The position numbers and the translations under genes are program-made. This document shows, piece by piece, positions 11,595 through 29,567 of a stretch of DNA of 64,000 nucleotides. Each line of letters begins with the position of its first letter. Within the stretch, counting starts at the first letter, position 1. The notes beneath the pieces are model-generated. The model was not told where the DNA came from, did no database searches, and worked only from the letters and a program-made list of their open reading frames with translations. The stretch is taken from the NCBI RefSeq assembly GCF_029193595.2, contig NZ_CP135052.1:2790001-2854000 (forward strand). The letters run 5' to 3'. Source of the DNA: Providencia hangzhouensis. GTDB lineage: Bacteria > Pseudomonadota > Gammaproteobacteria > Enterobacterales > Enterobacteriaceae.

Positions 11595-11647
11595 TGCAGT
11601 TTCCTCATTTTAATTTTGTTATTTTAATCAATCGCGAAGAGATAACC

Positions 11648-11678
11648 GTGGCGGTGATATGTAGGGAAACACCGCCAC
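11648..11678 (-). other. Intercistronic hairpin between dalK and dalT
   Basis: Perfect 9-base arms GTGGCGGTG and CACCGCCAC with a 13-base loop. No U tract follows on the minus strand, so it is not a normal terminator; it more likely sets the stability or processing of the dal mRNA. Confidence 0.6.
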
Positions 11679-11684
11679 ACTCGC

Positions 11685-13154
11685 CTACTGCGGCAATAAT
11701 TCCCTTGCTTGTTTTTGCTGTTGGTATAATAAACGGAAAACATCAAGCCGTTGATTTAACCAAGTTTGGCACTGTTTTTGTGGTAAATAGGTACTCAGCA
11801 CTTCTGGTTTTTGGCACACGGTTTCTGTATTACCGCCGTCCGCCAGCCATGCCAAACGAGCCGCACCTAAAGCCCCCGACGAACTCGCCGGGTGAGTCAC
11901 AATCGGTATATCGATAACATCAGCAATAAGCTGCGCCCAAACAGGACTACGTGCTCCTCCCCCTGTTAAGCTACACCGGCTAATTTGCGTTCCCGTTTGC
12001 GTTAAAACCTGCATGCCATCCGCCAGAGCGAAGGTCACGCCTTCAATCACCGCATAACCAAGCTGAGCACGCGTTGTTTCATTTTTTAACGCAAAGAATG
12101 AGCCCATTGCGTAAGGGTCATTATGGGGTGTTCTTTCCCCTGATAGGTAAGGCAAAAATACTGGCGCTTGCTTCTTCTCGTCATCGGTCAATAGCCCCAC
12201 TTCATCCATTAGCTGGTTTTCCGTTGTGGAAAGAAGCTGGCAAAGCCAACGCAAACAGTTGGCAGCACTTAACATCACACTCATTTGGTGCCAACGATTT
12301 GGCAATGCATGAGCAAATGCATGGACGCCTTGGTGTGGTGCTGCTTGTAGCTGATTATTAACCACAAAAATGACGCCAGAGGTGCCCAAAGAAATTAGAG
12401 CATCACCGTCATTAACCGCACCAACACCAACAGCAGAAGCCGCATTATCACCGCCTCCACCAGCGATAATTACATCGGCGCTAAGCCCCCATTGGGAAGC
12501 TAAATCCGCCCGTAACACACCGCTTTTTTCAGCGCCTTCAACTAAAGAAGGCATTTGTTCACGAGTTAAATTAGTTGCAGCCAATAGTTCATCAGACCAA
12601 TCACGCTTAGCCACATCTAGCCATAATGTGCCCGACGCATCAGACATATCACTGGTAAATTGACCAGTCATTTTCCAACGTAAATAATCTTTAGGAAGCA
12701 ATACCTTAGCAACTTTTTTGAATATTTCTGGTTCATGGCGTGCGACCCACAATAACTTGGGCGCCGTGAAACCTGGCATCACTAAATTAGCACCAATCGT
12801 TAGAAACTCAGGGTGATTTGCCATTAACCATTCACATTCCTTCGCACTGCGGGTGTCATTCCATAAGATACAGTCACGAAGTACTTGGTGTTCGCTGTTT
12901 AATAATACTGCGCCGTGCATTTGGCCCGATAAACCAATCGCTTTCACCGCTGCCCATGCTTCTGGGGCTTTTTGGCGCAAGGTAGCCGCAACCGCGTTAG
13001 TGGCTTCCCACCAACTATCTGGTGATTGTTCTGCCCACTGAGAATGTGGCCTTTGTACTGTTAATGCCATGTGACTTGAGGCAACAATTTCGCCCTGAGC
13101 ATTAATTAATACGGCCTTAAGTTCTGAAGTGCCTAGGTCAATTCCGAGGTACAT
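11685..13154 (-). CDS. dalK: D-xylulokinase of the D-arabinitol operon
   Basis: 489-residue FGGY-family kinase that phosphorylates D-xylulose to D-xylulose 5-phosphate. N-terminal phosphate-binding MYLGIDLGTSELKAVL, the GLSGQMHGAVLL substrate segment near 75, the catalytic-Asp region AGGGGDNAASAVGVG near 230, and the C-terminal ATP-site SLTGGGARSPVWAQL. The frame is open upstream into dalD, but the ATG at 13154 has AGGAG at a good distance. It begins 11 bases after the dalD stop. XylB of the xylose operon would look similar; the dalD/dalT/dalR neighbours make the D-arabitol role convincing. Confidence 0.9.
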   Translation of the reverse strand: MYLGIDLGTSELKAVLINAQGEIVASSHMALTVQRPHSQWAEQSPDSWWEATNAVAATLRQKAPEAWAAVKAIGLSGQMHGAVLLNSEHQVLRDCILWNDTRSAKECEWLMANHPEFLTIGANLVMPGFTAPKLLWVARHEPEIFKKVAKVLLPKDYLRWKMTGQFTSDMSDASGTLWLDVAKRDWSDELLAATNLTREQMPSLVEGAEKSGVLRADLASQWGLSADVIIAGGGGDNAASAVGVGAVNDGDALISLGTSGVIFVVNNQLQAAPHQGVHAFAHALPNRWHQMSVMLSAANCLRWLCQLLSTTENQLMDEVGLLTDDEKKQAPVFLPYLSGERTPHNDPYAMGSFFALKNETTRAQLGYAVIEGVTFALADGMQVLTQTGTQISRCSLTGGGARSPVWAQLIADVIDIPIVTHPASSSGALGAARLAWLADGGNTETVCQKPEVLSTYLPQKQCQTWLNQRLDVFRLLYQQQKQARELLPQ

Positions 13155-13165
13155 CGCCTTTCTCC

Positions 13166-14554
13166 TTACAGAGGTTGTTGAGGTGACTTGAGCCAATTTT
13201 CAACTTTTTCAACCGTGTTACTCATCAATTCGTGGAATTCAGTAGAATGAGCGAGTGAGCCGAACAACATTTCACTTGAGACAAATTGCGACAATGCGTC
13301 ACTGCTATTCATCATTTTTTGATATAGTGCCACATCCAACACACCATCCTGATATTCATAAGGTAATTCACCACGAGCCCAGCGCTGTAAAAATACGAAA
13401 AATAAAGCGGGCAGCACAGCCGTCGCAGCCGGAGTCTGCTGACGCTGATAGCATTCTTGGAGTGTTGGCGTAATAAAACCAGGTATTTTTGATAAGCCAT
13501 CTGCGGCTACACGTTGGTTAGTATCCTGAATATAAGGATTACTAAAGCGTGCGAGTACCACATCACGGTATTGTTCTAAATCGAGAGGACTCGGCGATAA
13601 TGACGGGATCACATCTTGTGTCACATAATTCCATGCCATTTGTTTGATAGCAGATTGGCGGGTGCTTTCATCAATAAAGCTCAAACCGATTAAGGTGCCT
13701 GCCCAAGCAATGCAACTGTGGCTTGCATTCAGAATACGAATCTTCGCTTCTTCCCAAGGTAAAACGGACTCAACCATTTCTACATCGACATTTTCTAATG
13801 CAGGACGTCCATTAATAAAGTCATCTTCAATCACCCACTGAATGAATGCCTCTCCCATAACAGGTGCTTTATCATCCCAACCAGTATGCTGTTTTACACG
13901 TTCAGCCACATCTGGGGTTGGGCGAGGCGTGATCCTATCAACCATGGTATTCGGCGAACGCGTATTTTCTTTCACCCATTGGTACAGCTCAGTTTCACCT
14001 TTTAATTGTAAAAACGATAAAAAGCCGTGTCTAAAGCGTTCGCCATTGTGGCGCAAATTATCACAATTTAACAAGGTCACAGGTTCACCATGAGCCGCTA
14101 AACGTGCACGTAAAATTTGTGTTAATGCACCATATATCGTGCTCATTTTGCCCGTTAAATCCGCTTTAATGTCTGGCTGTTCTGCATCTAACTCATGCTG
14201 TGGGGTTAAATAATAGCCCGCTTCTGTGACTGTAAAAGCAATAACACGTGTTGCTTTATCACAACCTTGTTCCACTAACTGGCTTAAATTCTCATCCCAA
14301 TGCAATACTTTGCGCACTGAAGTAATTTTTTCATAATGACGCTCACCTTCAGGTGAAACTGTTTCAAGGGTATATTCCCCATTTTGCTTGGTTAAGTTAT
14401 CAAGCAATGCATTCGCATCATTGCGAATATTCCCTAAGGCAATTGACCAACTATCATCCCCTTGTTGACACAAGCGGTGCAAATACCACGCTTGGTGAGC
14501 ACGATGAAATGACCCAGCACCGATGTGCATCCACACTGATTTCTGCTTTAGCAT
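13166..14554 (-). CDS. dalD: D-arabinitol 4-dehydrogenase
   Basis: 462-residue polyol-specific long-chain dehydrogenase (mannitol dehydrogenase family) oxidising D-arabinitol to D-xylulose with NAD. N-terminal [19 protein letters not shown] nucleotide-binding stretch, and the family catalytic motif K-x4-N-x2-H as K271-N276-H279 (KIRILNASH). Length agrees with Klebsiella DalD (about 455). First gene of the operon, AAGGAG ribosome site, divergent from dalR over a 177-bp region with a palindromic candidate operator. Mannitol 2-dehydrogenase is the main alternative; the operon composition argues against it. Confidence 0.92.
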
Positions 14555-14595
14555 TGTGACTCCTTACCCTAAAATTAAATAATTGCTATTTTTTT

Positions 14596-14607
14596 GGGCA
14601 TATGCCC
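14596..14607. promoter_or_regulatory. Palindrome GGGCATATGCCC, candidate DalR operator
   Basis: Perfect 12-bp palindrome in the dalD-dalR divergent region, with TTGCCC half-matches again near 14670 and 14690. Placement between regulator and target genes suggests an operator; there is no direct evidence. Confidence 0.45.
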
Positions 14608-14623
14608 GTTTGTTATATTTTAG

Positions 14624-14639
14624 TTTCAATCTGATCACA
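14624..14639. promoter_or_regulatory. Candidate CRP site in the dal promoter region
   Basis: TTTCA-ATCTGA-TCACA: the right half is the perfect CRP half-site TCACA and the left matches three of five bases of TGTGA at the required 6-base spacing. Catabolite control of a polyol operon is expected. Confidence 0.4.
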
Positions 14640-14731
14640 ATTACTGCGATAATGCTCACAGTATTGACTTTTGCCCTTTTAATAAACAATTGCCCAGAAT
14701 TACAATAAGCGAAACCAGCAGGAGAATGTTC

Positions 14732-15682
14732 ATGCAGAAAGAATTAAAAAAAATGGAACAAGCTGCACGTGCGGCATGGCTATATTTTGTGGCAGGCAAA
14801 ACACAACAGGAAATTGCGCATGAACTTGGGCTATCAAGACAAGTCGCCCAACGCCTTATTTCATTAGCAAAAGAACAAGGTATGGTTCAGGTGCAAATCA
14901 CGCACCCGATTACGGAGTGTTTAAGACTCGCTAATGAAATCCAGCAAAAGTATCACCTAACACATTGCTTTGTCGTCCCGTCAGGGCAACTAGATACAGA
15001 AGCGACACTCGACATGATTTCAGTGGCAGGTGCTGAGCTCATGGAGCAATTAATCGAACCCGATAAACCTCAAGTTATTGGTATCGGTTCAGGCAGAACA
15101 TTACGCAGTATTATTGACGCTCTTCCTTACCTAGAAACCTCTCAGCACCAATGTGTTTCATTAATAGGCGCTATTGCCCGTGATAGCTCAGCAACACGCT
15201 ATGATATTCCATTACGCTTTGCAGAAAAATTACAATGCCGACACTATATTCTACCTGCACCTCTTTATGCTGATAGCCCAGAAGATAAAGCAATGTGGTG
15301 CCAACATCGCGTGTATAAGGAAGTCACGGAAAAAGCCCTGAATGCAGATATTACCTTTATTGGTATTGGCGAAGTCGGCAAAGGATGCCCACTCAATTCT
15401 GAAGGTTTCGTCACGGATGAACAATTGGAAATGTTGTTAGAAAAAGGTGTCGCCGCAGAGCTATTGGGGCATTTTATTCAAGCTAACGGTGAGCGACTTT
15501 CTACGGCTTTGGATGACACACACACCAGTGTCCCACTGTTCCCTTCCCCAAATAAGCCTGTGATCGCATTTGCGGGTGGTGTGCACAAAACAAAAGCCAT
15601 TCAAGCCGTTATGAATGGCGGTTGGGTAACAGGTTTAGTGACCGATGAAGCCACTGCGCATCATTTATTAGCGAATAAATAA
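14732..15682 (+). CDS. dalR: SorC-family regulator of the D-arabinitol operon
   Basis: 316-residue regulator: N-terminal HTH (GKTQQEIAHELGLSRQVAQR, residues about 20-40) and a SorC/DeoR-type sugar-phosphate-binding domain to the end (GIGSGRTLRSIIDALP near 115, FIGIGEVGKGCPL near 210, AFAGGVHKTKAIQAV near 290). Two in-frame starts lie close together; ATG 14732 has AGGAG seven bases upstream, while ATG 14726 would be only one base from it. Divergent from dalD. Known DalR of Klebsiella is a repressor released by D-arabinitol; the same role is inferred. Stop codon is separated from the convergent crcB stop by one base. Confidence 0.88.
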   Translation: MQKELKKMEQAARAAWLYFVAGKTQQEIAHELGLSRQVAQRLISLAKEQGMVQVQITHPITECLRLANEIQQKYHLTHCFVVPSGQLDTEATLDMISVAGAELMEQLIEPDKPQVIGIGSGRTLRSIIDALPYLETSQHQCVSLIGAIARDSSATRYDIPLRFAEKLQCRHYILPAPLYADSPEDKAMWCQHRVYKEVTEKALNADITFIGIGEVGKGCPLNSEGFVTDEQLEMLLEKGVAAELLGHFIQANGERLSTALDDTHTSVPLFPSPNKPVIAFAGGVHKTKAIQAVMNGGWVTGLVTDEATAHHLLANK

Positions 15683-16421: not shown

Positions 16422-16511
16422 AGATACCCTAAATAGTTAGGGGTCATAACTAAGCAGAAAACGAATAAGTTAGTGTCGTCAACAACGCTACAGCTTGAAG
16501 TATGACGAGCT
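16422..16511 (+). repeat. Palindromic intergenic repeat, copy C (short form)
   Basis: About 90 bp, from GATACCCTAAATAGTTAG to GCTTGAAGTATGACGAGCTA, same orientation as copies A and B but lacking most of copy B's central hairpin. Its last bases overlap the stop codon (16510-16512) of the SorC-family gene on the other strand. Confidence 0.75.
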
Positions 16512-17472
16512 ATTGGGACATCTTCAAAATCGTCCGCACATTACTCGCACTCGTTGCAATAATATCAATCGCCCCCGTACGCAGCGCCCCCATGATAGCC
16601 ATGGCCTTGGAGGATTCGGAAGCAATCGCTATTACGCAAGGAATTTTCTTGAGTTCTTCTATGCTTAGGCCAATTACTCGGTCATTCATCACCGTATCAA
16701 CATGTTGCCCTTGCGCATTAAAAAAATCATAACCCGCGATATCGCCAATCACCCCTTGATTCAAACTCGCATCAACAATTTCACGCGGTGTAAACCAGCC
16801 TAGTTTGACCATATAGCTATCTTCATTCATATCGCCAATACCAATTAAGGCAATATCCGCTTTACGGGCGCGATCTAAGGTTTCCTTAATGGTCCCATTT
16901 TTCATAAAAGATTGCTTTAATTCGTTATTTTCAACATAAGCAGGGGCGTATAGGGTTTCACTGGTTCCGCCAAATTTCTTCGCTAAGCGACGGCTGATAT
17001 GGTCCGCATTGATAGAGTCGCCAGGCCGGTGTGTTCCGCCGATTCCACAAATAAAACGGCAATCTTTTTCAGGAACGGCCCCGCCGCTATCGGCTACCAC
17101 CGCGACATTTCGCCCCTGACCGACGGTGACTATCATATTGTCACGTAATGTTGTCGATAAATAATTAGCGACGAGTGTACCAACTTGGTAGCGTTGTTCT
17201 TCTTCATCGGGATGATCGAGGGCAATCAACGCACGGGAAATCGGAAAACGAGAAAGTAGCTGTTGCTCTAGCTGAGTGCTAAAAATAGGATGATAGCGAA
17301 CATTGATCTCAACAATACCTTCTTCTTTTGCTCGCTTAAGTAAGCGCCCCACCTTAATTCGCGATATACCAAACTTATTGGCGATCTCTTCCTGAGTAAT
17401 TTCATCGCGATAATAAGCTATCGCAATTTCAGTCAGTAGCTCGATTTCGGAAGATGTTTGTGATCTATCCAT
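16510..17472 (-). CDS. SorC-family regulator, EryD-like
   Basis: 320-residue transcription regulator. HTH near residues 25-50 (DEITQEEIANKFGISRIKVG), then a SorC sugar-binding domain (VTVGQGRNVAVVADSGG near 115, FICGIGGTHRPGDS near 138, LIGIGDMNEDSYM near 210). From memory this is the EryD branch, the erythritol-responsive regulator of Brucella and relatives. It is the last gene of the tetritol operon, 159 bases after dhaL, with a 12-bp hairpin in the gap. AGAGGAAA ribosome site. Its TAG stop lies inside the end of repeat copy C. A ligand such as a tetrulose or its phosphate is inferred. Confidence 0.8.
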   Translation of the reverse strand: MDRSQTSSEIELLTEIAIAYYRDEITQEEIANKFGISRIKVGRLLKRAKEEGIVEINVRYHPIFSTQLEQQLLSRFPISRALIALDHPDEEEQRYQVGTLVANYLSTTLRDNMIVTVGQGRNVAVVADSGGAVPEKDCRFICGIGGTHRPGDSINADHISRRLAKKFGGTSETLYAPAYVENNELKQSFMKNGTIKETLDRARKADIALIGIGDMNEDSYMVKLGWFTPREIVDASLNQGVIGDIAGYDFFNAQGQHVDTVMNDRVIGLSIEELKKIPCVIAIASESSKAMAIMGALRTGAIDIIATSASNVRTILKMSQ

Positions 17473-17573
17473 AAGATAGTGGTTTCCTCTTTATTGGTGT
17501 TAATCGCAACAAGGATGATAAGGTTTTAGTATAGCGTTTCTAGTGGCAATTAATAAGTGAGTTATAAAAGAGA

Positions 17574-17610
17574 GTGGATATATAGCAATGGTTTTTGACT
17601 ATATATCCAC
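17574..17610. other. Perfect 12-bp inverted repeat between dhaL and the SorC regulator
   Basis: GTGGATATATAG and CTATATATCCAC with a 13-base loop. On the minus strand it is followed by TCTCTTTTAT, a weak U tract. It may partially terminate the tetritol mRNA before the regulator gene, or be an operator. Confidence 0.55.
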
Positions 17611-17631
17611 GAAAAGAGTTATATAAAACAA

Positions 17632-18285
17632 TTATGCATTGGTTAATGCGCTCTGTTTTTCAACACTTTGCGCTAATTGGCATAATAATAAACAACAAGA
17701 AGTCGCGCCTGCATCTAACACGCCCCTTGAACGCTCACCAAGGCGGCTTGCACGGCCAATTTTAGCCACTAAATCTACCGTGGAATCACGGCCTGCAACT
17801 GCAGCGGCCTGCATCGCATCAAGCGCTTGTTTAAAGTTTTTCCCTGCTTTTGTTGCCTCTTCAAAGGCATTAACCGCAGGGATCAATGTATCCATTAGGC
17901 ACTTGTCACCCACTGTTGCACTGCTGATGTCTTGCAGTTCAGATAGCCCATTTTTCAACATAGCAAGAAAATCTTGCTGCGATAACTCATTTTTCCCTGA
18001 AATGCTGTCTGACATTCCCATAAAGAAACTGCCATAAAGTGGCCCCATTGAACCGCCAATACCGTCCATCAAGGCATCAGAAATCTCTTCAAAGCCTTCA
18101 CTGAGTGATAATTCACGGTCTGCGATTGCTTTAGCGCATAGATTAAAACCTTTTGCCATATTGATGCCATGGTCTCCATCCCCTATTGCTCCATCAATTT
18201 CGCTGAGGTATTCACGGTTAGAAACAATAATGTTCACTAAATCAAGGGTAATTTCCTTGCCGTTGCCCGTTGAAATAACTTGCAT
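17632..18285 (-). CDS. dhaL: DhaL-type kinase subunit (ADP/ATP-binding), probable erythrulose kinase
   Basis: 217-residue DhaL domain, the nucleotide-binding half of dihydroxyacetone-type kinases. Mg-ADP ligands are in DGAIGDGDHGINM (31-43), then GGSMGPLYGSFFMG near 77-90, VGDKCLMDTLIPA near 124 and GRASRLGERSRGVLDAGATS near 180-198. Starts 10 bases after dhaK with AAGGAG. No DhaM phosphotransfer subunit is present, so this pair probably uses ATP directly, as in Citrobacter-type enzymes, or borrows a distant DhaM. The setting suggests a tetrulose (erythrulose) rather than dihydroxyacetone as substrate; that is inference. Confidence 0.85.
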   Translation of the reverse strand: MQVISTGNGKEITLDLVNIIVSNREYLSEIDGAIGDGDHGINMAKGFNLCAKAIADRELSLSEGFEEISDALMDGIGGSMGPLYGSFFMGMSDSISGKNELSQQDFLAMLKNGLSELQDISSATVGDKCLMDTLIPAVNAFEEATKAGKNFKQALDAMQAAAVAGRDSTVDLVAKIGRASRLGERSRGVLDAGATSCCLLLCQLAQSVEKQSALTNA

Positions 18286-18295
18286 AGTTGTCTCC

Positions 18296-19297
18296 TTATT
18301 TGACCTGTGTTAGACCCAATGAATATGCAGGGACATCCATCAATGCTTTCAATTCATCATCCACTTTCATTAATGTCAGCGTTACCCCCATCATTTCTAA
18401 TGACGTAAAATAGTTACCAACATAGTTACGAGCAATACGCACGCCTTTTTCGCTGAGTTGTTTTTCAACCTCTGCATAATAGATATACAATTCCATTACG
18501 GGTGTGGCACCTAATCCTGAAACCAATACGACGACTTCATCACCTTGTTTTGCCTGCATATCATCTAAGATTGGCGTTAACATAGTTTGTGCCATTTGCG
18601 CTGCAGACTGGATTGGCATGATTTCAATGCCTGGCTCACCATGGTGGCCAATACCGAGCTCCATCATCCCATCTTCAATATGAAAATTTGGATGACCCAC
18701 CGCTGGAATGGTACAAGACGTTAGCCCAACACCAATAGAATGGCAGTTATTAATCGCTTTTTGTGCCGCATTAATCACGCCGTCTAAATCATAGCCTTTA
18801 CTTGCTGCGGCAGAACCCACTTTCCACATGAGTATTTCACCCGCGACACCACGGCGCTTTTCTTTCTCGCTCGCAGGGGCTGAAGCGACGTCATCGGTAG
18901 CAACCACGGTTTTAACTTTCATACCCGCTTTTTCAGCTTTTTTCATCGCCATTTTGACGTTCATGTTATCGCCTGCATAATTACCATATAAACAAGCAAC
19001 GCCCGCCCCACTGTCTGCGGCTTTGAACGCATCTAAAAATGCCCCAGCGGTTGGCGAGGAGAAAATTTCACCAATTGCCACCGCATCTAACATGTTTTCG
19101 CCCACATAGCCTAAAAATGCAGGTTCATGGCCGGAGCCACCACCAGTAACAATGCCCACTTTCCCTTGTATTGGTGCTTTTGGGTATTTTAATACGCGCG
19201 CATTATCAGTCTGCGTAAAATATTCAGGGTGCGCTTTCAAATAGCCTTGAATGGCATCTTCAACAACAAGATCAGGTTCATTAATGATTCTGTTCAT
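18296..19297 (-). CDS. dhaK: DhaK-type kinase subunit (substrate-binding), probable erythrulose kinase
   Basis: 333-residue DhaK domain. The ketose-binding elements are visible: VTGGGSGHEPAFLGYVG (50-66), NYAGDNMNVKMA near 106, and GIGHHGEPGIE near 210, whose His forms the hemiaminal with the substrate. AGGGAATT ribosome site; 11 bases after the permease stop. Mycobacterial L- and D-erythrulose kinases belong to this fold, and here the pair stands between an erythritol/threitol-type dehydrogenase and an EryI-like isomerase. Glycerol/dihydroxyacetone use is the alternative, but no glycerol dehydrogenase is nearby. Confidence 0.87.
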   Translation of the reverse strand: MNRIINEPDLVVEDAIQGYLKAHPEYFTQTDNARVLKYPKAPIQGKVGIVTGGGSGHEPAFLGYVGENMLDAVAIGEIFSSPTAGAFLDAFKAADSGAGVACLYGNYAGDNMNVKMAMKKAEKAGMKVKTVVATDDVASAPASEKEKRRGVAGEILMWKVGSAAASKGYDLDGVINAAQKAINNCHSIGVGLTSCTIPAVGHPNFHIEDGMMELGIGHHGEPGIEIMPIQSAAQMAQTMLTPILDDMQAKQGDEVVVLVSGLGATPVMELYIYYAEVEKQLSEKGVRIARNYVGNYFTSLEMMGVTLTLMKVDDELKALMDVPAYSLGLTQVK

Positions 19298-19308
19298 AAT
19301 TCCCTCAT

Positions 19309-20580
19309 TTACTTATTTTCTGGTGTTAGCTGCATCTCTGCCGACTTTTCAAGTAATTCCGCCGGCACAGTAATAAATTTCATCAATATCGCACTAAATA
19401 AATAGAGCCCCGAGAAAATCCAAATCACGCCAAAAGCACCTACACTACTAATAAAGAGCCCAACTAATGCAGGACCGACAAAAGTGCTTAACCCTGCCCC
19501 TAAATTAAGGACTGACATTGCTGCACCTTTATTTTCAGGCGCTAAACTCGGCATGATGGCTGAAAGTGGTACGTATCCAGCGAGGCATGCACCAAATAAG
19601 CCAGCGGCTATCATCATCAGGGTATAATTGTGCCCAAAATAATAAGGCACGTAATAAAACATTAAGGTACAAACCATACAGCCGACACAACCAAACCAAA
19701 TCACAATATTGCGCCAACCGATACGGTCACTGACAACGCCAAAGATCAGATTAAAAGCGATGTTTACTGTCCAAAGTGCTGCGTAGATATGTAACCATTC
19801 TGTGCGGGAAAAACCAAAGTCGGCAAGAAACATTGGCATGAAGATCACAAAACCATACGCTGCAGAGGTATTAATAGTACGAACAATGCCACCTAAACCA
19901 ATTTTTGGGTTTTCAAACGCAATCGTGATCCCTTTAAACACATAGCTAAGTGAAACTTTTTCTTTCGGTGAGTCCGGTGTATCTCCCGCTTTGTTGCGGT
20001 TAAGCGCGATAGCAATAAATGCCCCGATAGTGACAAAAATTAGTCCACTCCATAACGTTGCCATTTCACCTAAAATTGGCAGCGCATAACTCGAATACAT
20101 CACCCCTAAAACACCGAGTCCGCCACTATAAACAAACCAGAAGATCCCGACAGCAGAGCCCAATTTTTTAATTGGCGCCTCATAGGCCACCCAAACTAAG
20201 AAGCCGTAGGCAAACATTGGATAACCAAAACCACGCAACGCATAGGTTGGGATCATGATAGACAGGCTGTTACTCGGTAAACCAACAGATAAGAAAATAA
20301 CCGAGCCAATCACAAACATCACAAAACCAAAAATCATCACACGACGAGCAGTATAAATTTCAGCCAACACACCGGATAACCACGCGGCGACAGCAGCAAA
20401 AAAACCATACACACTAAACAGTAATGAAGACTCTTCAATACTCATTCCACGGCTAATAATAAAAGGCGACAACCAGCCTTGTTCAAGCCCTTCCCCCATC
20501 ATAAAGATCAGGACGCCAAAATAGCCAAGTAGTAACTTTGGTGAAAACCCCGTTACTTTAGACAGTTTATTGATTATCAT
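19309..20580 (-). CDS. MFS polyol permease, probable erythritol/threitol transporter
   Basis: 423 residues, twelve predicted spans, paralogue of DalT at 10305: shared landmarks are FMMGEGLEQGWLSPFI, SVYGFFAAVAAWLSGVLAE, FYYVPYYFGHNYTLMM and NKGAAMSVLNLGAGLS. Family substrates are linear polyols moved with protons. GAGG ribosome site eight bases before the ATG. It follows the Zn dehydrogenase after 129 bases that contain a 12-bp hairpin, and precedes dhaK by 11. Specificity for C4 polyols is inferred from the operon. Confidence 0.82.
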   Translation of the reverse strand: MIINKLSKVTGFSPKLLLGYFGVLIFMMGEGLEQGWLSPFIISRGMSIEESSLLFSVYGFFAAVAAWLSGVLAEIYTARRVMIFGFVMFVIGSVIFLSVGLPSNSLSIMIPTYALRGFGYPMFAYGFLVWVAYEAPIKKLGSAVGIFWFVYSGGLGVLGVMYSSYALPILGEMATLWSGLIFVTIGAFIAIALNRNKAGDTPDSPKEKVSLSYVFKGITIAFENPKIGLGGIVRTINTSAAYGFVIFMPMFLADFGFSRTEWLHIYAALWTVNIAFNLIFGVVSDRIGWRNIVIWFGCVGCMVCTLMFYYVPYYFGHNYTLMMIAAGLFGACLAGYVPLSAIMPSLAPENKGAAMSVLNLGAGLSTFVGPALVGLFISSVGAFGVIWIFSGLYLFSAILMKFITVPAELLEKSAEMQLTPENK

Positions 20581-20612
20581 ATTGTTGACCTCAGTGCTTG
20601 TTCGCTGGGTTA

Positions 20613-20657
20613 GGACCTGAATAACAAGCCTTGGTAGGGTGACATTTATTCAGGTCC
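20613..20657. other. Perfect 12-bp intercistronic hairpin upstream of the tetritol permease
   Basis: GGACCTGAATAA and TTATTCAGGTCC with a 21-base loop. No U tract on the coding side. Located in the gap between the dehydrogenase and permease genes, matching in position the dalK-dalT hairpin. Confidence 0.65.
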
Positions 20658-20709
20658 AATTTTTATCGTTATATTTTTAATTTCGTATTTTTTTCAACCC
20701 ACTACAGCA

Positions 20710-21822
20710 CTACAGGTTTGGGTCGAGAACCACTTTAATGTGCGGGTCACCTTTCGCCATCATCGAAAAACCTTCCGCAAATTTATCTAAAGGTAAGATA
20801 TCCGTCACCACCCCTTTAGTTGGGAAATCACCATTACCAATGCCTTCAATCACTAACGGGTAGCAATATGGGCCAAGGTGAGAACCTAATAAATCCAGTT
20901 CTTTGCGGTCACTGATAATGCTCCAATCCACGGTCACAGGGTCTTTAAATACAGAAAACTCAACAAAGGTACCTAATTTACGGATCATCTTAAGGCCTTG
21001 CTCTACCGATTTAGGGGCCCCAGTCGCTTCAATGTAAATGTCACAGCCATAACCTTCAGTCATCTCTTTGACAATTTTGTCTACATCATCACGTTTAGGG
21101 TTTAATACGATATCAGCACCAAATTCTTTTGCTAATTCAAGACGTTTATCAAATAAATCTAGAACGACTAACTTACCTGCTCCGGATTTTTTAATTGCTC
21201 CAATCATGCCTAGGCCTAATGTTCCCGCCCCCGAAAGCACGACAACATCACCCAATTTGACATTGGCACGCTGCACCGCATGTAAAGAACAGGCGTAAGG
21301 TTCAATTAAAATAGCGTCTTCAATTGGCATCTCAACAGGTACATGGTAGTTAATGGCCTCTTTGGTGAACTTCATATATTGCGCCATACCGCCGTTCACG
21401 TTGTTTTGGAAACCATACAAGTCATGCTTCTCACACATCCAGTATTCACCGCGTTTACAGAAACGGCATTCCCAGCAAGGTACGATTTGCTCAGAAATAA
21501 CACGGTCACCTAATGCAAAACCTTCAACTTTTGAACCAAAGCCTACGACATGGCCAATAAATTCATGCCCTGGGATCATCGGTGCCTTGATATAAGCGGG
21601 CTGCTCTGCATCCCCCCAAAAGCTTGGCGCACCTTCAAAAGCCTTCACATCTCCCGCGCAGATACCACAAGCTTCTACGCGAACCAAAATTTCTTCTTCA
21701 CTAATTTTAGGGACATCGACAGTTTCTAAACGGTAGTCTTTTGGTGCATAAGCAACCACGGCTTTCATTTTTTCTGGAATGCTTTCGCTCATCGTTGCTT
21801 TTGAATCACAGTGTTCACACAT
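20710..21822 (-). CDS. Zinc-dependent erythritol/L-threitol-type dehydrogenase
   Basis: 370-residue medium-chain zinc alcohol dehydrogenase. Catalytic zinc ligands: CGICAGDV (Cys near 60) and GHEFIGHVVG (His-Glu near 85). Structural zinc: CWECRFCKRGEYWMC. NAD-binding GAGTLGLGMIGAIKK near 205. The extended N-terminus CEHCDSKATM is cysteine-bearing. A longer in-frame start exists, but ATG 21822 has GAGG at eight bases. I recall this branch being annotated as erythritol/L-threitol dehydrogenase; the reaction would give erythrulose. Heads the operon dehydrogenase-permease-dhaK-dhaL-regulator. L-sorbose-type or threonine dehydrogenase-like activity is possible, though the neighbours favour a C4 polyol. 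Confidence 0.78.
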   Translation of the reverse strand: MCEHCDSKATMSESIPEKMKAVVAYAPKDYRLETVDVPKISEEEILVRVEACGICAGDVKAFEGAPSFWGDAEQPAYIKAPMIPGHEFIGHVVGFGSKVEGFALGDRVISEQIVPCWECRFCKRGEYWMCEKHDLYGFQNNVNGGMAQYMKFTKEAINYHVPVEMPIEDAILIEPYACSLHAVQRANVKLGDVVVLSGAGTLGLGMIGAIKKSGAGKLVVLDLFDKRLELAKEFGADIVLNPKRDDVDKIVKEMTEGYGCDIYIEATGAPKSVEQGLKMIRKLGTFVEFSVFKDPVTVDWSIISDRKELDLLGSHLGPYCYPLVIEGIGNGDFPTKGVVTDILPLDKFAEGFSMMAKGDPHIKVVLDPNL

Positions 21823-22045
21823 AGTTCTATCCTCGGCGGTTTGTAAAATGAACATAAGTTCAATGAAGATACAAATTAACCATACCTTCTTTTCTTCATC
21901 CTTGCCCATAGTCAGATTGTCAAAGTGTGATTCAGTGCAAAAATTCTTATAAAATCGCCTTAAAACGCCTATTTTTTACATTTTTGGCAAAAAAAATTAA
22001 ATTTGAAGCTGTAGATCACAGAATTCATCATCACAAAAATAAAAA

Positions 22046-22127
22046 CATATGTTCACCTATTGATTATTTGTTCATAAGATCCTATTTTCTAAATAGTACA
22101 TTTGATTGATTAATGAACTTTTGTTCA
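22046..22127. promoter_or_regulatory. Cluster of TGTTCA half-sites in the tetritol divergent promoter
   Basis: TGTTCA occurs at 22050 and 22069, and the inverted pair TGAAC-TTTT-GTTCA at 22114-22127, all between the divergent dehydrogenase operon and rpiB-tkt. The first sits in CATATGTTCA, which recurs at 25773 upstream of the SDR gene. Candidate operators for the EryD-like regulator. Confidence 0.45.
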
Positions 22128-22145
22128 ACAATAAGGATCTCTATC

Positions 22146-22598
22146 ATGCTATCTATTGCTATTGGTGCAGATGATGCTGCATTTGAAATGAAAGATTTGA
22201 TTAAGGCTCACTTAGCAGAATTAAACATTGAAGTGACTGATTACTGCTTAAATACTGGGGTTGCAGATGAAATGTATCCTGATGTTGCCCACGCTGTTGC
22301 AACTGCAATCGTACAAGGTAAGCACCAGCGCGGTATTTTAATTTGTGGTACCGGAATTGGTATGTCCATTGTTGCCAATAAAGTCACAGGCATTCGAGCA
22401 GCACTGTGCCATGACACATACTCCGCTGAACGAGCACAAAAAAGTAATGATGCACAAATTATTACCTTTGGTGCCCGTGTGATTGGCCCTGAACTGGCTA
22501 AAACCATTGTCGACACATGGCTGGCTTCCCATTATGAAGGGGGACGGTCAGCGCCGAAAGTGGCTCGAATCAGTGAGTATGAAAATGGGGAACGTTAG
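22146..22598 (+). CDS. RpiB/EryI-type isomerase, probable D-erythrulose-4-phosphate isomerase
   Basis: 150-residue RpiB-family sugar-phosphate isomerase. Active-site Cys is C67 in GILICGTGIGMSI; next comes ALCHDTYSAERAQKSNDAQI, ending with ITFGARVIG. The His-Asp-Thr-Tyr-Ser-Ala-Glu-Arg segment recalls Brucella EryI rather than E. coli RpiB. The usual N-terminal DHAG is DDAA here. The likely reaction is D-erythrulose 4-P to D-erythrose 4-P. The ATG at 22146 has AAGGA before it; upstream starts lack one. First gene of an rpiB-tkt unit divergent from the dehydrogenase operon. Ribose-5-phosphate isomerase activity cannot be excluded. Confidence 0.8.
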   Translation: MLSIAIGADDAAFEMKDLIKAHLAELNIEVTDYCLNTGVADEMYPDVAHAVATAIVQGKHQRGILICGTGIGMSIVANKVTGIRAALCHDTYSAERAQKSNDAQIITFGARVIGPELAKTIVDTWLASHYEGGRSAPKVARISEYENGER

Positions 22599-22634
22599 TT
22601 TTACTTTAGGCGCTTTTACTTTGGGAGCTTTGTA

Positions 22635-24644
22635 ATGTCCACTCAACCACAAAATAAATTAGCCAATGCCATTCGATTTCTTTCAATAGATGCCGTACAA
22701 CAAGCCAACTCAGGCCACCCCGGCGCACCAATGGGAATGGCTGATATTGCCGAAGTCCTATGGCGAGATTACTTACAGCACAACCCTGCTGACCCGAATT
22801 GGCCTAATCGTGACCGTTTCGTCTTGTCAAACGGCCATGCATCAATGCTGCTCTATAGCTTACTTCATTTAACGGGCTATGATTTATCTATCGACGATTT
22901 AAAACAGTTCCGTCAGCTCCATTCCAAAACACCGGGTCATCCTGAATTAGGCTATACCCCCGGTGTTGAAACCACTACAGGTCCTTTAGGCCAAGGCATT
23001 GCCAACGCGGTTGGTATGGCAATAGCAGAAAAAACGTTGGCTGCTACGTTTAATCGCTCTGGTTTCCCCGTTGTCGACCACTATACCTACACATTTTTAG
23101 GTGATGGCTGCTTAATGGAGGGGATCTCCCATGAGGTGTGTTCATTAGCAGGAACGCTAAAACTCAATAAACTCATTGCCTTTTATGATGATAACCGTAT
23201 TTCTATTGATGGTAATACTCAAGGTTGGTTTACTGATAATACCGCAAAGCGTTTTGAAGCTTATGGCTGGCATGTTATTCGCCAAGTCGATGGACATTCT
23301 CGGCCTGCAATCAAAGCGGCCATCGAACAAGCTCGCCAACAAACCTCGAAACCAACCCTCATTATTTGCAGAACCACTATTGGTTATGGGTCTCCCAATA
23401 AAGCCGGGACAGCCGATTCTCATGGTGCTCCATTAGGGCAAGACGAAATAGCGCTGACTCGTCAACAACTCGGCTGGGAATACCCTCCTTTTGTTATTCC
23501 TGATGAAATATACCAGCCTTGGAATGCCCTAGAACATGGTGCTGAACAGCAATTACGTTGGGAGCAAGCATTACGAGAATATGCCAAACAATACCCAGAA
23601 CTTGCCGAGCAGCTAACGCAGCGATTATCCAATCAACTTCCTGAAAAATTTACAGATATCATTGATAACTTCATTCAACAATTAAATGAAAACCCTGCAA
23701 CGATAGCTACACGTAAAGCGTCACAAAATACACTCAATATTATTGGCCCTGTTTTATCTGAATTAATCGGTGGTTCCGCAGACTTAGCCCCAAGCAACCT
23801 CACCTATTGGTCTGGGTCACTGCCAATTAATGAACAGCCTTCAGGCAACTATATTCACTATGGCGTCAGAGAGTTTGGTATGACCGCCATTGCTAATGGA
23901 ATTGCATTACACGGCGGTTTTCGCCCTTACACAGCAACTTTTTTGATGTTCTCTGAATATGCGCAAAATGCCGTGAGAATGGCCGCATTAATGAAATTGC
24001 CCCAAATACTCATTTATACTCACGATTCCATTGGATTAGGTGAAGATGGCCCAACGCACCAACCTGTTGAGCAACTTGTTTCACTACGTGCAACACCTAG
24101 TTTGTCAGTATGGCGCCCTTGTTGCCAAGTAGAAACAGCGGTGGCTTGGCAACAAGCTATCTTAGCGAAACATACGCCAACCGCCTTAATATTATCGCGG
24201 CAAAACCTAATACAATATTCGCGAACAACTGAACAACTCGCCAATATTGCACATGGTGGATATATTTTGCGCAGTAATAGTGAAAACCCTGAATTACTAT
24301 TAATTGCCACAGGCTCTGAAGTCACATTAGCGGTTGAAGCTTGGAAACAACTGACTGAACAAGGGTTTAATGTGAATGTTATTTCGATGCCTTCAACAGA
24401 TACCTTTGACCAACAACCCTTAGAGTACCAACAGCGCGTTTTACCCAATCACGTTCGGCACCGTATTGCTATCGAAGCCAGTATAAGTGATTACTGGCGT
24501 AAATATGTAGGAATTGATGGATTGGTCATGGGAATGAATAGCTTTGGGGAGTCGGCTCCTGCAAACCAATTATTTGAATATTTTGGTTTCACCGTAGAAA
24601 AGCTTATTACTATGTCGCTTTCATTATTAAAACCTAATGATTAA
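22635..24644 (+). CDS. tkt: Transketolase (accessory)
   Basis: 669-residue full-length transketolase. Thiamine diphosphate site: GDGCLMEG near 157-164 followed by the conserved Asn in IAFYDDN; substrate His residues in [11 protein letters not shown] (28) and SNGHAS (about 69); GVREFGM carries the catalytic Glu; [17 protein letters not shown] the phosphate-binding His. Starts 36 bases after rpiB with GGGAG. Placed in the tetritol locus, it would use the D-erythrose 4-P made by the pathway. It is probably a second copy beside the housekeeping tktA elsewhere; this is not checkable here. A strong terminator follows. Confidence 0.95.
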
Positions 24645-24696
24645 TTGATATAGCAATAATTAATATCTGTTATCCTACTTTGTAATTTTCTATTAC

Positions 24697-24733
24697 AAGC
24701 CAAATAATACTTATGTTATTTGGCTTATTTTTT
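24697..24733 (+). terminator. Terminator of the rpiB-tkt unit
   Basis: AAGCCAAATAA and TTATTTGGCTT, 11-bp perfect stem, then ATTTTTTATTT. Confidence 0.9.
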
Positions 24734-24757
24734 ATTTAAATAAAATCATCAATAATA

Positions 24758-24791
24758 AATAAAGCGAGTCGCTACTCACACTCACTTTATT
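24758..24791 (-). terminator. Probable terminator of the SDR gene
   Basis: On the minus strand AATAAAG-T-GAGT pairs with ACTC-G-CTTTATT, with a mismatch in the stem, followed by TTATTATT. It begins 16 bases after the SDR stop. Confidence 0.5.
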
Positions 24792-24806
24792 CATTATTAA
24801 ATATCA

Positions 24807-25568
24807 CTATTGGATACTGTAGCCACCATCAATAACCAAATTATGTCCGGTGATCATATCGGATGCATCACTGGCCAAAAATAATGCACATGCGGCAATT
24901 TCAGACGGTTCAGCAAAACGCCTTGCAGGAATTTTTTCTTTCATTTCATCACCTTTTTCACCTTCCCACGCTTTTTTGCCCAGTTCTGTCATCACAATAG
25001 TTGGTGAAATGGCGTTGGTTTGTATCCCTTTAGGGCTCCATTCAAGTGCTAATACTTGGGTTAAACCAATAATCGCTGCTTTACTCGCACAATAGGCGGC
25101 ATGTTGGTCTAAGGCAATCACGCCTGCTTGTGATGCCATATTAATAATCTTCCCTTTTCCATTATTAATCATGATATTACCTGCAGATTGGCAAACCAAA
25201 AAAGTCCCTTTTAAATTCACGTTCATGGTTAAATCCCAGTCTGACTCACTTAAATTTTCAGCGGGAGCAAGCGCTACAATTCCAGCACTATTGACGACAA
25301 TATCTAATGTACCATAATGCTCAATGACATGTTTTACCATCTGAGAAACCGCCTCAGAATTTGTGATATCACATTGAATACCAATTGAATTTTTTAATTT
25401 CTCTGCAATTTTCACTACTTTATCTGACTTATCAATTAACGCAATTTTAGCCCCTTTTTCGACATACAGTTGAGCAATCGCCAACCCAATGCCTGCAGCT
25501 CCCCCTGTAATTAAAGCGACCTTGCCATCAAGTGAAAAGTTGGTGTTATAGCCACTAAATTTTTTCAT
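24807..25568 (-). CDS. SDR-family dehydrogenase, possibly D-threitol dehydrogenase
   Basis: 253-residue classical short-chain dehydrogenase. NAD site GGAAGIG near 22; acidic DK near 43, favouring NAD; NSAG near 93; catalytic S-Y-K as the Ser in NMASQAG, then YCASK (Y158-K162). The N-terminus KKFSGYNTNFSL and the core VIALDQHAAYCASKAAIIGL resemble, from memory, proteins called D-threitol dehydrogenase or GolD. It would turn D-threitol into D-erythrulose, feeding the neighbouring kinase. AAGGAA ribosome site; monocistronic; convergent with tkt; its upstream region shares CATATGTTCA with the tetritol promoter. Other polyol substrates are possible. Confidence 0.72.
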   Translation of the reverse strand: MKKFSGYNTNFSLDGKVALITGGAAGIGLAIAQLYVEKGAKIALIDKSDKVVKIAEKLKNSIGIQCDITNSEAVSQMVKHVIEHYGTLDIVVNSAGIVALAPAENLSESDWDLTMNVNLKGTFLVCQSAGNIMINNGKGKIINMASQAGVIALDQHAAYCASKAAIIGLTQVLALEWSPKGIQTNAISPTIVMTELGKKAWEGEKGDEMKEKIPARRFAEPSEIAACALFLASDASDMITGHNLVIDGGYSIQ

Positions 25569-27525: not shown

Positions 27526-28560
27526 TCACTCTTTAACCACCCCCACAGGTAACACTTCAATTAATTGTGCTTTGCTATTTTCATTATCTATCAACTTAAA
27601 AATATGATTTAACATCGTTGGCACATCCTGTTTGACCATTTCGATGTCATTACCTAAAAGAGCAACAAAAGGATCCCAGTCAAAACAGCCTAAGTGGGGT
27701 TGCTGTGAACCGATATAGCCCTTTTTACCTAACCAATCAATAACCCCTTCTAATGAAATAGTTGAATTAATAAACAAACCGCATTTCACTATTTTCTGTG
27801 GATCATCATTATTCTGTTCAAAAAACTGTGAGAGTGATTTTTCAGCTTTTTCGGGGGCATAACCACAAGCCAAAATATTTTCTTGTGGAACCGTGATACC
27901 TTTTTCATTATGCGCATCAATAAACCCACGAATACGTTCACGTGTATTGTGGTCATGTTCACGACCACCAATAAAAATTAAAGCTTCATTTATTGATGTT
28001 TGAGACTTATTTTTGCTTAAAATACGTTGGGTTAAATTTTTTGCACCAAGATAGTTATTTGAAATAACCGAAGGCGCCAACGAGCCCGGTAAGTCTAAAT
28101 TTAAGGTCGAAACCCCCGAGGCTTGGCAAATTTCAGTAATTTTATCCGGGTTCGTTGCCCCTGTTGAAATCAACCAATCAACCTGATAAGAAATCATTGC
28201 GCGTGCAGCTTCTATTTCTAACTTTGGGTCACGCCGCGTACAAGTAATAATAGGAAACAGCCCCCTTTCACGCGCCATTTCTTCAAAATGCTCGACAATA
28301 GAGCCAAAATAGCGGTTGTCATACTTCGGAACCAACATACCAATTATTTTGGATTTATTACTGCGCAATAAGCTGGCTTGCTTGTTAACTGCATAATTTT
28401 GTTCTTCGGCGATGCGGATCACTTTTTCCGCAAGTTGTGCGCTAATTCGCCTTTTTTGCCAATTACCGTTGAGTATTGCACTCACTGCACTCGCTGAAAC
28501 CCCGGCTAATTCGGCAAGGTCATAGATCGTTGTTTTCTTATTTTGTCTGATCTTTGTCAC
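27526..28560 (-). CDS. rbtR: LacI-family regulator of the ribitol genes
   Basis: 344-residue LacI/GalR regulator. HTH TIYDLAELAGVSASAVSAIL at residues 11-30, hinge region near 60, then the periplasmic-binding-like ligand domain (KIIGMLVPKYDNRYFGSIVE near 71; LIFIGG near 195; LGCFDWDPFVALLG near 290). Divergent from rbtD by 234 bases, the same arrangement as rbtR in Klebsiella, so repression relieved by D-ribulose or ribitol is inferred. Starts at GTG with GGAG upstream. Confidence 0.82.
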   Translation of the reverse strand: MTKIRQNKKTTIYDLAELAGVSASAVSAILNGNWQKRRISAQLAEKVIRIAEEQNYAVNKQASLLRSNKSKIIGMLVPKYDNRYFGSIVEHFEEMARERGLFPIITCTRRDPKLEIEAARAMISYQVDWLISTGATNPDKITEICQASGVSTLNLDLPGSLAPSVISNNYLGAKNLTQRILSKNKSQTSINEALIFIGGREHDHNTRERIRGFIDAHNEKGITVPQENILACGYAPEKAEKSLSQFFEQNNDDPQKIVKCGLFINSTISLEGVIDWLGKKGYIGSQQPHLGCFDWDPFVALLGNDIEMVKQDVPTMLNHIFKLIDNENSKAQLIEVLPVGVVKE

Positions 28561-28794
28561 AGATTCTTATCTCCATTTTTTACTAGCTTGACACCAAAGT
28601 CGAAAAGTCGCAATACTGCTACATCGATTGAGCAAAATTGAAATTGATGATGCATGAGTTGATAAACTGCAAAATAAATACTATCAATCCATCGCATGTA
28701 GCCACCTATCCATTGTTGTGACTCATTGCTGTTTCATTAATTTCAGACGCTTTTCATTCTTACATTTCGCTAAAATATCCGATTGGAGTAAATT

Positions 28795-29523
28795 ATGGCT
28801 ATTTCTATTGAGAACAAAGTCGCAGCAATTACCGGAGCTGCCTCAGGTATCGGGCTTGAATGCGCACGTACACTGATCAAGGCGGGTGCAAAAGTCGTTC
28901 TAATTGACCGTGCTGAAGAGCGATTAAACCAACTTGTTGAGGAACTAGGTGAAAATGCGATTCCATTAGTAGTCGATTTAATGAAGCCAGAACAAGTTGA
29001 TGGAATGCTAGATGCCATCTTACAAAAAGCAGGCGGCTTAGATATTTTCCATGCTAATGCCGGTGCTTATATTGGCGGCCCTGTTGCTGAGGGTGACCCA
29101 GATGTATGGGATAAAGTTTTAAACTTAAACATTAATGCGGCCTTCCGTTGTGTTCGCGCAGTGCTACCTCATTTTATTGCCCAAAAATCAGGTGATGTAT
29201 TATTCACCAGCTCAATTGCAGGTGTGGTTCCAGTAATCTGGGAGCCGATTTACACTGCATCAAAATTTGCTGTCCAAGCCTTCGTCCATTCAACTCGCCG
29301 CCAAGTTTCTGAACATGGTGTCCGTGTTGGTGCGGTATTACCTGGCCCTGTAGTGACAGCCTTACTCGATGATTGGCCGAAAGAAAAAATGGAAGAAGCT
29401 CTGGCAAATGGTAGCTTAATGCAACCGATTGAAGTCGCTGAAGCCGTATTATTTATGCTAACTCGCCCACGCAATGTCACTATTCGTGACCTTGTTATTG
29501 TGCCAAACAGTGTTGATCTCTAA
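28795..29523 (+). CDS. rbtD: Ribitol 2-dehydrogenase
   Basis: 242-residue SDR enzyme oxidising ribitol (adonitol) to D-ribulose with [21 protein letters not shown] is the NAD-binding turn, [20 protein letters not shown] follows the NAG motif, [19 protein letters not shown] carries Ser and Tyr-x3-Lys, and [15 protein letters not shown] lies near the C-terminus. From memory it is nearly colinear with Klebsiella ribitol dehydrogenase, which is about 247 aa. GGAG ribosome site. First gene of the rbtD-rbtK unit, 45 bases before the kinase. Confidence 0.93.
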
Positions 29524-29567
29524 CTTGTCACCTCGCAATTCATTGCAGTTAGCACCTTGGAGGGAAA

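Follow-up and report, generated by a model that had tools for sequence, protein, structure and literature searches.

Several described systems handle tetritols, the four-carbon sugar alcohols, or use similar enzymes. The tetritol pathways of Mycobacterium smegmatis, reportedly worked out by Huang in 2015, employ EltD, DthD, LerK/DerK, LerI and DerI, together with what we take to be a fused kinase and an ATP-binding cassette (ABC) transporter. The EryABCDHI route of Brucella and rhizobia, in which EryI is presumably of the RpiB type and EryD of the SorC type, has D-erythrose 4-phosphate as its end product. The EYD1-EYK1-EYI route of Yarrowia lipolytica passes through L-erythrulose and has a further isomerase. 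The gol operon of Listeria (GolD, DhaKLM) has a kinase dependent on the phosphotransferase system (PTS) with DhaM, carries an extra gene of the triose-phosphate isomerase (TIM) family and is assigned to glycerol. EltD and LerK are reported to convert L-threitol to L-erythrulose-1-phosphate and erythritol to D-erythrulose-4-phosphate, and the four enzymes EltD, LerK, LerI and DerI together enable an E. coli strain mutated in both transketolases to use either tetritol for growth (PMC10733421); the Brucella erythritol pathway depends on Tal/Tkt (PMC11508834); and EYD1 and EYK1 act in Y. lipolytica (PMC6785901). Here, we analyzed a stretch of 64,000 nucleotides of Providencia hangzhouensis (contig NZ_CP135052.1, positions 2,790,001 to 2,854,000; hereafter the window), from a genome of 4.6 Mb in 3 contigs that is rated 100% complete. 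We observed at positions 16510 to 25568 a set of eight genes, its conservation, the absence of the markers of other routes, a serine signature in the isomerase and a pair of palindromes. We propose, with a probability of about 0.75, that this locus is a tetritol catabolic module working through D-erythrulose.

The locus has two divergent units. The minus-strand unit runs from a Zn-dehydrogenase through a permease of the major facilitator superfamily (MFS), DhaK and DhaL to a SorC regulator; the plus-strand unit has an RpiB-family isomerase followed 36 bp on by a transketolase, with a minus-strand short-chain dehydrogenase/reductase (SDR) beyond. The eight open reading frames (ORFs) of a preliminary description are all open, at the places and on the strands it gave, and family scans agree with its family names for all eight proteins. 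Its ORF limits held for six starts, and two starts were moved on conservation. The dehydrogenase is taken as 370 residues (20710-21822) because many relatives have 370 residues and their alignments begin at residue 30 of the ORF as called, and the isomerase as 150 residues (22146-22598) because AAGGA is conserved ahead of the ATG at 22146. The features are as follows.

16510..17472, minus strand: SorC-family regulator with sugar-binding domain (PF04198, 262 bits; 97-100% identity in 11 of 11 other Providencia loci).
17632..18285, minus strand: DhaL, nucleotide-binding half of a ketose kinase (TIGR02365, 165 bits, cut-off 138; GDxDHG kept).
18296..19297, minus strand: DhaK, ketose-binding half, proposed D-erythrulose kinase (PF02733, 388 bits; sole Dak1 gene found in the genome).
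19309..20580, minus strand: MFS polyol permease, RbtT/DalT/CsbX family (TIGR00897, 534 bits, cut-off 375).
20710..21822, minus strand: Zn-dependent medium-chain dehydrogenase of the EltD type, proposed to convert erythritol to D-erythrulose (names of relatives).
21849..21862, no strand: palindrome TGAACATAAGTTCA, candidate SorC operator at the dehydrogenase start (motif count, conservation).
22114..22127, no strand: palindrome TGAACTTTTGTTCA, candidate SorC operator at the rpiB start (motif count, conservation).
22146..22598, plus strand: RpiB-family isomerase, Ser in place of E. coli His99, proposed D-erythrulose-4-phosphate isomerase (sole RpiB-family match in the genome).
22635..24644, plus strand: transketolase (1008 bits, cut-off 682; lineage Providencia-only in the tree made).
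24807..25568, minus strand: SDR of the GolD/DthD family, proposed accessory enzyme from D-threitol to D-erythrulose (NF005309, 396 bits, cut-off 286).

The gene set had been called distinct from known erythritol routes, and it turns out to be less so. Judged by names and family models, it shares with the M. smegmatis pathways an EltD-type Zn-dehydrogenase, a DthD-type SDR, a DhaK-type kinase, an RpiB-type isomerase and, on our reading, erythrose-4-phosphate as product, and differs from them in lacking LerI anywhere in the genome and in having a SorC regulator and an attached transketolase (a transaldolase in relatives). The window also presumably departs from them in its split DhaK/DhaL and its MFS permease. 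Hence, the module resembles the LerI-free part of the M. smegmatis pathway plus a DthD-type SDR. With the Brucella route it would have the end product and the need for Tal/Tkt in common, along with an RpiB-type isomerase and a SorC-type regulator; however, the genome has no second TIM-family gene (EryH), there is no EryA, EryB or EryC at the locus, and in our scheme oxidation would precede phosphorylation. The dehydrogenase would come first and the erythrulose kinase second, as in Y. lipolytica, and the clustering of an SDR, DhaK/L, RpiB and transketolase is that of the Listeria gol operon.

The preliminary description had proposed a path from tetritol through erythrulose and erythrulose phosphate to D-erythrose 4-phosphate. 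This is still the best reading, with independent support added and now narrowed to D-erythrulose. The RbtT-type permease would import erythritol and D-threitol. The EltD-type Zn-dehydrogenase would oxidize erythritol to D-erythrulose, and the GolD/DthD-type SDR would produce the same ketose from D-threitol. DhaK and DhaL, without DhaM and probably with ATP, would then form D-erythrulose-4-phosphate, which the RpiB-family enzyme could isomerize to D-erythrose-4-phosphate. The local transketolase and the single transaldolase of the genome may drain this product, with a net conversion of 3 erythrose-4-phosphate to 1 fructose-6-phosphate and 2 glyceraldehyde-3-phosphate. The SorC protein is expected to repress both divergent units from the two palindromes until an inducer binds. 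We infer every substrate, product, cofactor and regulatory step of this scheme from the genes and their relatives.

The narrowing to D-erythrulose follows from what the genome lacks. It has a single PF00121 (TIM-family) match, which we take as tpiA, and thus no LerI or EryH candidate. The route would therefore go through D-erythrulose, erythritol and D-threitol being the expected substrates, and L-threitol should be used poorly. A phmmer search with the TpiA of this genome against 3916 ORFs of 80 loci, at E values up to 10 and with no EryH positive control, returned nothing LerI-like among the neighbors of related DhaKs. Brucella EryH is reported to be 33% identical to lactobacillus TIMs (PMC12542623), a similarity that this kind of search ought to detect. 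Seven FGGY kinases exceed the cut-off in the genome; all were scanned, and none lies at the locus. Their best matches are glycerol, rhamnulose, xylulose or pentulose kinase models (glpK is present), three of them (L120, L123, L124) fall below every equivalog cut-off, and no erythritol-kinase model is among the matches. Because the genome has just one TIM-family gene and the locus has no FGGY kinase resembling EryA, we set an EryA-type route aside, although an EryA-like kinase may exist among the low-scoring FGGY proteins.

The kinase genes are homologues of E. coli DhaK and DhaL and share their active-site motifs. DhaK keeps SGHEP, NYxGD and HGEPG, which hold His56, Asp109 and His218 of the E. 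coli protein, and DhaL keeps GDxDHG. DhaK exceeds the Pfam Dak1 cut-off and remains under the NCBIfam equivalog cut-offs (TIGR02363, 365 bits against 406), and a stretch of 24 residues of the PTS-type E. coli DhaK is missing from it. A profile search of the genome found this one Dak1 gene; DhaM (TIGR02364), present in the E. coli DhaKLM system and matched in the E. coli positive control, was not found. With DhaM not found, ATP is the likely phosphate donor, and DhaK plus DhaL would form an ATP-dependent kinase, proposed to act on D-erythrulose.

These proteins also bear on a second possibility, that the locus serves glycerol and dihydroxyacetone in the manner of the Listeria gol operon, with a glycerol dehydrogenase feeding DhaKL. 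DhaKL is classically a dihydroxyacetone kinase, the SDR passes a model (NF005309, 396 against 286 bits) that covers GolD as well as DthD and is named after both, and the gol operon also has genes for RpiB, TIM, transketolase and transaldolase. However, glycerol use offers no obvious task for RpiB or transketolase, the permease belongs to a pentitol family, the genome has its own glpK, and the serine signature of the isomerase points away from pentose phosphates. We consider this explanation very unlikely.

The isomerase is the only RpiB-family gene of the genome, which also has one RpiA. It passes the generic and the equivalog RpiB models (TIGR01120, 148.5 bits against 138.65). At the position of E. 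coli His99, which we take to be the ring-opening residue, it has a serine, so the ring-opening histidine is absent. We surveyed the 57 RpiBs encoded no more than 8 kb from a related DhaK, which come from 55 of 80 loci. This serine is present in 56 of them, the lone exception being the second RpiB of L064, the more distant one. The window protein retains Cys66, as do 56 of the 57, and the remaining one has a gap there. Histidine occupies position 99 in E. coli K-12 RpiB and in the PDB chains 3he8, 3ph3 and 1o1x (presumably from Clostridium thermocellum and Thermotoga maritima), and asparagine in 2vvr. Three near PDB chains have serine: 5ifz, which we take to be from Brucella, and 3qd5 and 3sdw, presumably from Coccidioides. 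A furanose ring is out of reach for tetrose 4-phosphates, and an enzyme acting on them would be expected to lose the ring-opening residue. Hence, the replacement of His99 by serine fits an acyclic tetrose phosphate substrate.

A scan of 119 genomes across the order gave matches in 28. Eleven matches exceed 100 bits, including that of the window; those below 100 bits, mostly longer proteins, were left uncounted, and one that aligned (L177) has valine. The other ten above 100 bits have serine in five cases (L156, L157, L158, L159, L180), histidine in four (L153, L154, L155, L160) and lysine in one (L161). Cys66 is missing from L161 as well, and L160 carries Asp in its place. In flanks of about 1.5 kb, a transaldolase adjoins three of the five serine-type genes (L156, L157, L159) and none of the four histidine-type ones. 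L159 also has a Zn-dehydrogenase 82% identical to that of the window, and L180 a galactitol-type PTS permease beside its RpiB. Among the histidine types, L153 adjoins an RpiR regulator and a ribulose-phosphate epimerase, L154 an RpiR regulator, and L160 a PTS permease and a fructose bisphosphatase; nothing was recognized in the two neighbors of L155 that were scanned. In L158 (392-1962), from another family of the order, a TIM gene directly precedes the serine-type RpiB. This TIM gene scores 340 bits on the triose-phosphate isomerase model, above the cut-off of 293, and may be a plain tpiA rather than LerI. This model pass, and the presence of a PTS permease beside both L180 and L160, weaken the idea that neighbors cleanly divide the serine and histidine types; our reading relies on the serine count near related DhaKs and is unaffected.

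The module is well conserved. In our sample of 24 Providencia genomes, a close DhaK (90-100% identity) occurs in 12, only a 41-44% homologue in five, and none in seven; this gave 12 loci including the window, with which the 11 others were compared. The regulator, DhaL, DhaK, permease, Zn-dehydrogenase and RpiB are each intact in all 11 (92-100% identity for the dehydrogenase). The transketolase is intact in 9 of 11, being not found in L009 and L010, and the SDR also in 9 of 11. These counts argue that the arrangement is not due to chance. In the two remaining loci the DthD-type SDR is split (L010, 5458-6209; L114, 15516-16272), by a real frameshift or an assembly error.

Beyond Providencia, the module occurs in Serratia, Budvicia, Yersinia, Erwinia and Edaphovirga, where the SDR lies inside the operon, and DhaK is present in both of two genomes of the genus of G039. 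Plasmids of Klebsiella pneumoniae, E. coli (1 of 5426 genomes) and Salmonella enterica also carry it; of the three plasmid stretches read, those of K. pneumoniae and Salmonella are typed as conjugative. We thus regard the locus as a real, conserved and partly plasmid-borne module, predicted to serve tetritols. On the E. coli plasmid (L127), from chicken meat, the module lies between insertion sequence elements, a few kb from tet(A). In Budvicia aquatica (L015, 11725-20065), a second serine-type RpiB adjoins a putative DUF1537 kinase and a PdxA-like dehydrogenase (labels read from the starts of the sequences), as if a tetronate pathway had been joined to the tetritol module.

Our interpretation could explain a phenotype. 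About three quarters of P. rettgeri are reported to acidify erythritol (PMC5663057), a property described as unique to this species, within the Proteeae in one of them (PMC10796120, PMC5663057), and used to recognize it (PMC10796120, PMC5663057). Growth on m-erythritol is a biotype test of S. marcescens that a 2022 genus-wide genomic study omitted for want of an assigned pathway (PMC9440931); one Serratia strain used i-erythritol (PMC7468404) and one S. marcescens strain did not (PMC8417746). Among the literature matches listed, no title or abstract opening assigns genes to the use of erythritol by Providencia or Serratia. The module probably channels four-carbon sugar alcohols, the sweetener erythritol among them, to central metabolism. 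It may also be what has been missing as a genetic explanation for a growth test by which these bacteria have long been recognized.

Which tetritols are used depends on the two dehydrogenases. Among the 120 best of 6429 matches to the Zn-dehydrogenase, 15 bear the name erythritol/L-threitol dehydrogenase (EltD), two of these names being incomplete as listed, at 73-82% identity; they include proteins of Salmonella, Paramixta, Niallia, Salinicola and Paenibacillus. The other listed relatives have generic names or are called iditol dehydrogenase, D-arabitol-phosphate dehydrogenase or threonine dehydrogenase, and a 345-member cluster named after Serratia marcescens is 81% identical to the window enzyme. 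If the SDR makes D-erythrulose, the sharing of one kinase and one isomerase suggests that the Zn-dehydrogenase makes D-erythrulose too. At identities of at least 45%, the 55 DhaK loci with RpiB have matches to both dehydrogenases in 13 cases, to the Zn-dehydrogenase only in five (including L010, where the SDR is split) and to the SDR only in eight. These eight, the GolD/DthD type of the SDR, and two carrier species that are erythritol-negative by implication of the reports would suit a module only or chiefly for D-threitol, with both dehydrogenases acting on it and the erythritol growth of P. rettgeri based elsewhere. Yet the K. pneumoniae and E. coli plasmid stretches, as well as L028, L029 and L030, pair the Zn-dehydrogenase with the kinase and isomerase and have no SDR match, and the Brucella route looks incomplete in a genome with one TIM-family gene. 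We find a D-threitol-only module unlikely. In L143 (5538-10246; about 955500-960245 of genome C1), a second EltD-like dehydrogenase, 57% identical to the window enzyme, adjoins an apparent sugar ABC transporter and a LacI-type regulator; no kinase or isomerase was recognized among the listed ORFs there, and this enzyme might be a second tetritol entry into the same kinase.

The substrate specificity of the MFS, SDR and Zn-dehydrogenase families is unreadable from sequence alone, which leaves room for a module using the same enzyme families on another polyol or ketose, e.g., a branched or longer sugar. As a combination, however, the kinase, isomerase and dehydrogenase correspond to the tetritol set, and the loss of the ring-opening residue argues against a sugar phosphate that cyclizes; we consider this reading very unlikely.

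Several points weigh against a D-erythrulose module. The EltD names of the relatives are transferred annotation. Neither dehydrogenase class reaches 45% identity in 29 of the 55 loci just mentioned, which must use something else, and the Acerihabitans locus (L014) has SDR, DhaK, DhaL, RpiB and SorC with no match to the Zn-dehydrogenase or the permease. On the NCBIfam equivalog model of D-erythrulose-4-phosphate isomerase (DerI of M. smegmatis), the window RpiB scores 182 bits, under the cut-off of 240, with E. coli RpiB at 120. The 57 RpiBs surveyed share descent, so their 56 serines are not independent events, and the aligned RpiBs include none of proven D-erythrulose-4-phosphate isomerase activity. 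The module is also present in P. vermicola DSM 17385 and in P. heimbachae ATCC 35613, whereas the trait is called unique to P. rettgeri. Finally, TpiA and LerI may have each other's activity (PMC10733421), and weak L-threitol use is therefore possible.

The transketolase was described as a local user of erythrose-4-phosphate. It is indeed present in the window, but it is not a constant part of the module: two of the 12 Providencia loci lack it, and in other places different transketolase lineages stand instead, often with a transaldolase. The window protein shares 68% identity with the second transketolase that the genome encodes. In a tree of 12 rows, which leaves out Serratia L012 and L013 (read in two frames), it belongs to a Providencia-only clade of four rows with 65-68% identity to the eight others, including E. 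coli TktA and TktB. This speaks against a TktB relic from the maeB/talA-tktB site. In L012, L013, L017 and L145, the module is flanked by maeB on one side and talA-tktB on the other, which are direct neighbors in E. coli K-12, and rpiB, talA and tktB therefore run in one direction; L011 has maeB and talA at the module with no tktB match, and MaeB was found in 5 of 12 loci tested. Two plasmid transketolases are identical to each other and 94% identical to E. coli TktA. Hence, different transketolase lineages stand beside the same isomerase. L011, L014, L016 and the stretch of the Salmonella plasmid have no transketolase at the module, and a transaldolase or transketolase often accompanies the module outside Providencia. 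Brucella lacking both tal and fba is reported not to grow on erythritol (PMC11508834), which suggests a benefit of the attached genes.

Putting these elements together, we would give about even odds to a broader model in which a mobile LerI-free tetritol module across Enterobacterales explains the erythritol traits of P. rettgeri and Serratia. Under this model, lineages attached their own transketolase (often a transaldolase) to cope with erythrose-4-phosphate, and a branch of RpiB lost the ring-opening histidine because its substrate cannot cyclize, leaving a one-residue marker of tetrose-phosphate isomerases. If true, serine would mark tetrose-phosphate isomerases hidden among ribose-5-phosphate isomerase B annotations, many of which it might correct. 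The chief value of the locus is that it gives two old diagnostic traits, of P. rettgeri and S. marcescens, a testable gene set. It also predicts which tetritol isomers are used, and it places a putative sweetener-catabolism module on plasmids of enteric bacteria.

The palindrome TGAACNNNNGTTCA (TGAAC-N4-GTTCA) occurs exactly twice in the window, at 21849 and 22114, between the divergent units and just upstream of the corrected dehydrogenase and rpiB starts. The expectation is 0.095 exact copies per such sequence (200 simulated sequences), for a pattern chosen after the sequence was seen; with one mismatch allowed, the four matches in the window are unremarkable (18 of 100 shuffles reach four). 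Both copies, about 265 bp apart, are exact in 9 of 12 Providencia loci, L005 having one and L009 and L010 none, and no further exact copies occur in the Providencia stretches examined. The full palindrome is absent from the stretches of ten other loci, where the half-sites TGAACA/TGTTCA number 28 against 4.5 expected; none of the three plasmids stands out by itself, since 8 to 15% of simulations attain its half-site count. It is no more than a fair guess that a SorC repressor forms a loop between these two candidate operators.

Two further polyol loci lie nearby. The adjoining one (10305-15682) appears to be a pentitol locus, with a xylulokinase by family scan and what reads from the sequence as a dehydrogenase of the mannitol/arabinitol type, a regulator resembling SorC and a permease of the MFS; D-arabinitol is its probable substrate. 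The third polyol/pentulose locus of the same 20 kb (27526-31196) has an apparent LacI-type regulator, an SDR and an FGGY pentulose kinase (TIGR01315, 755 bits).

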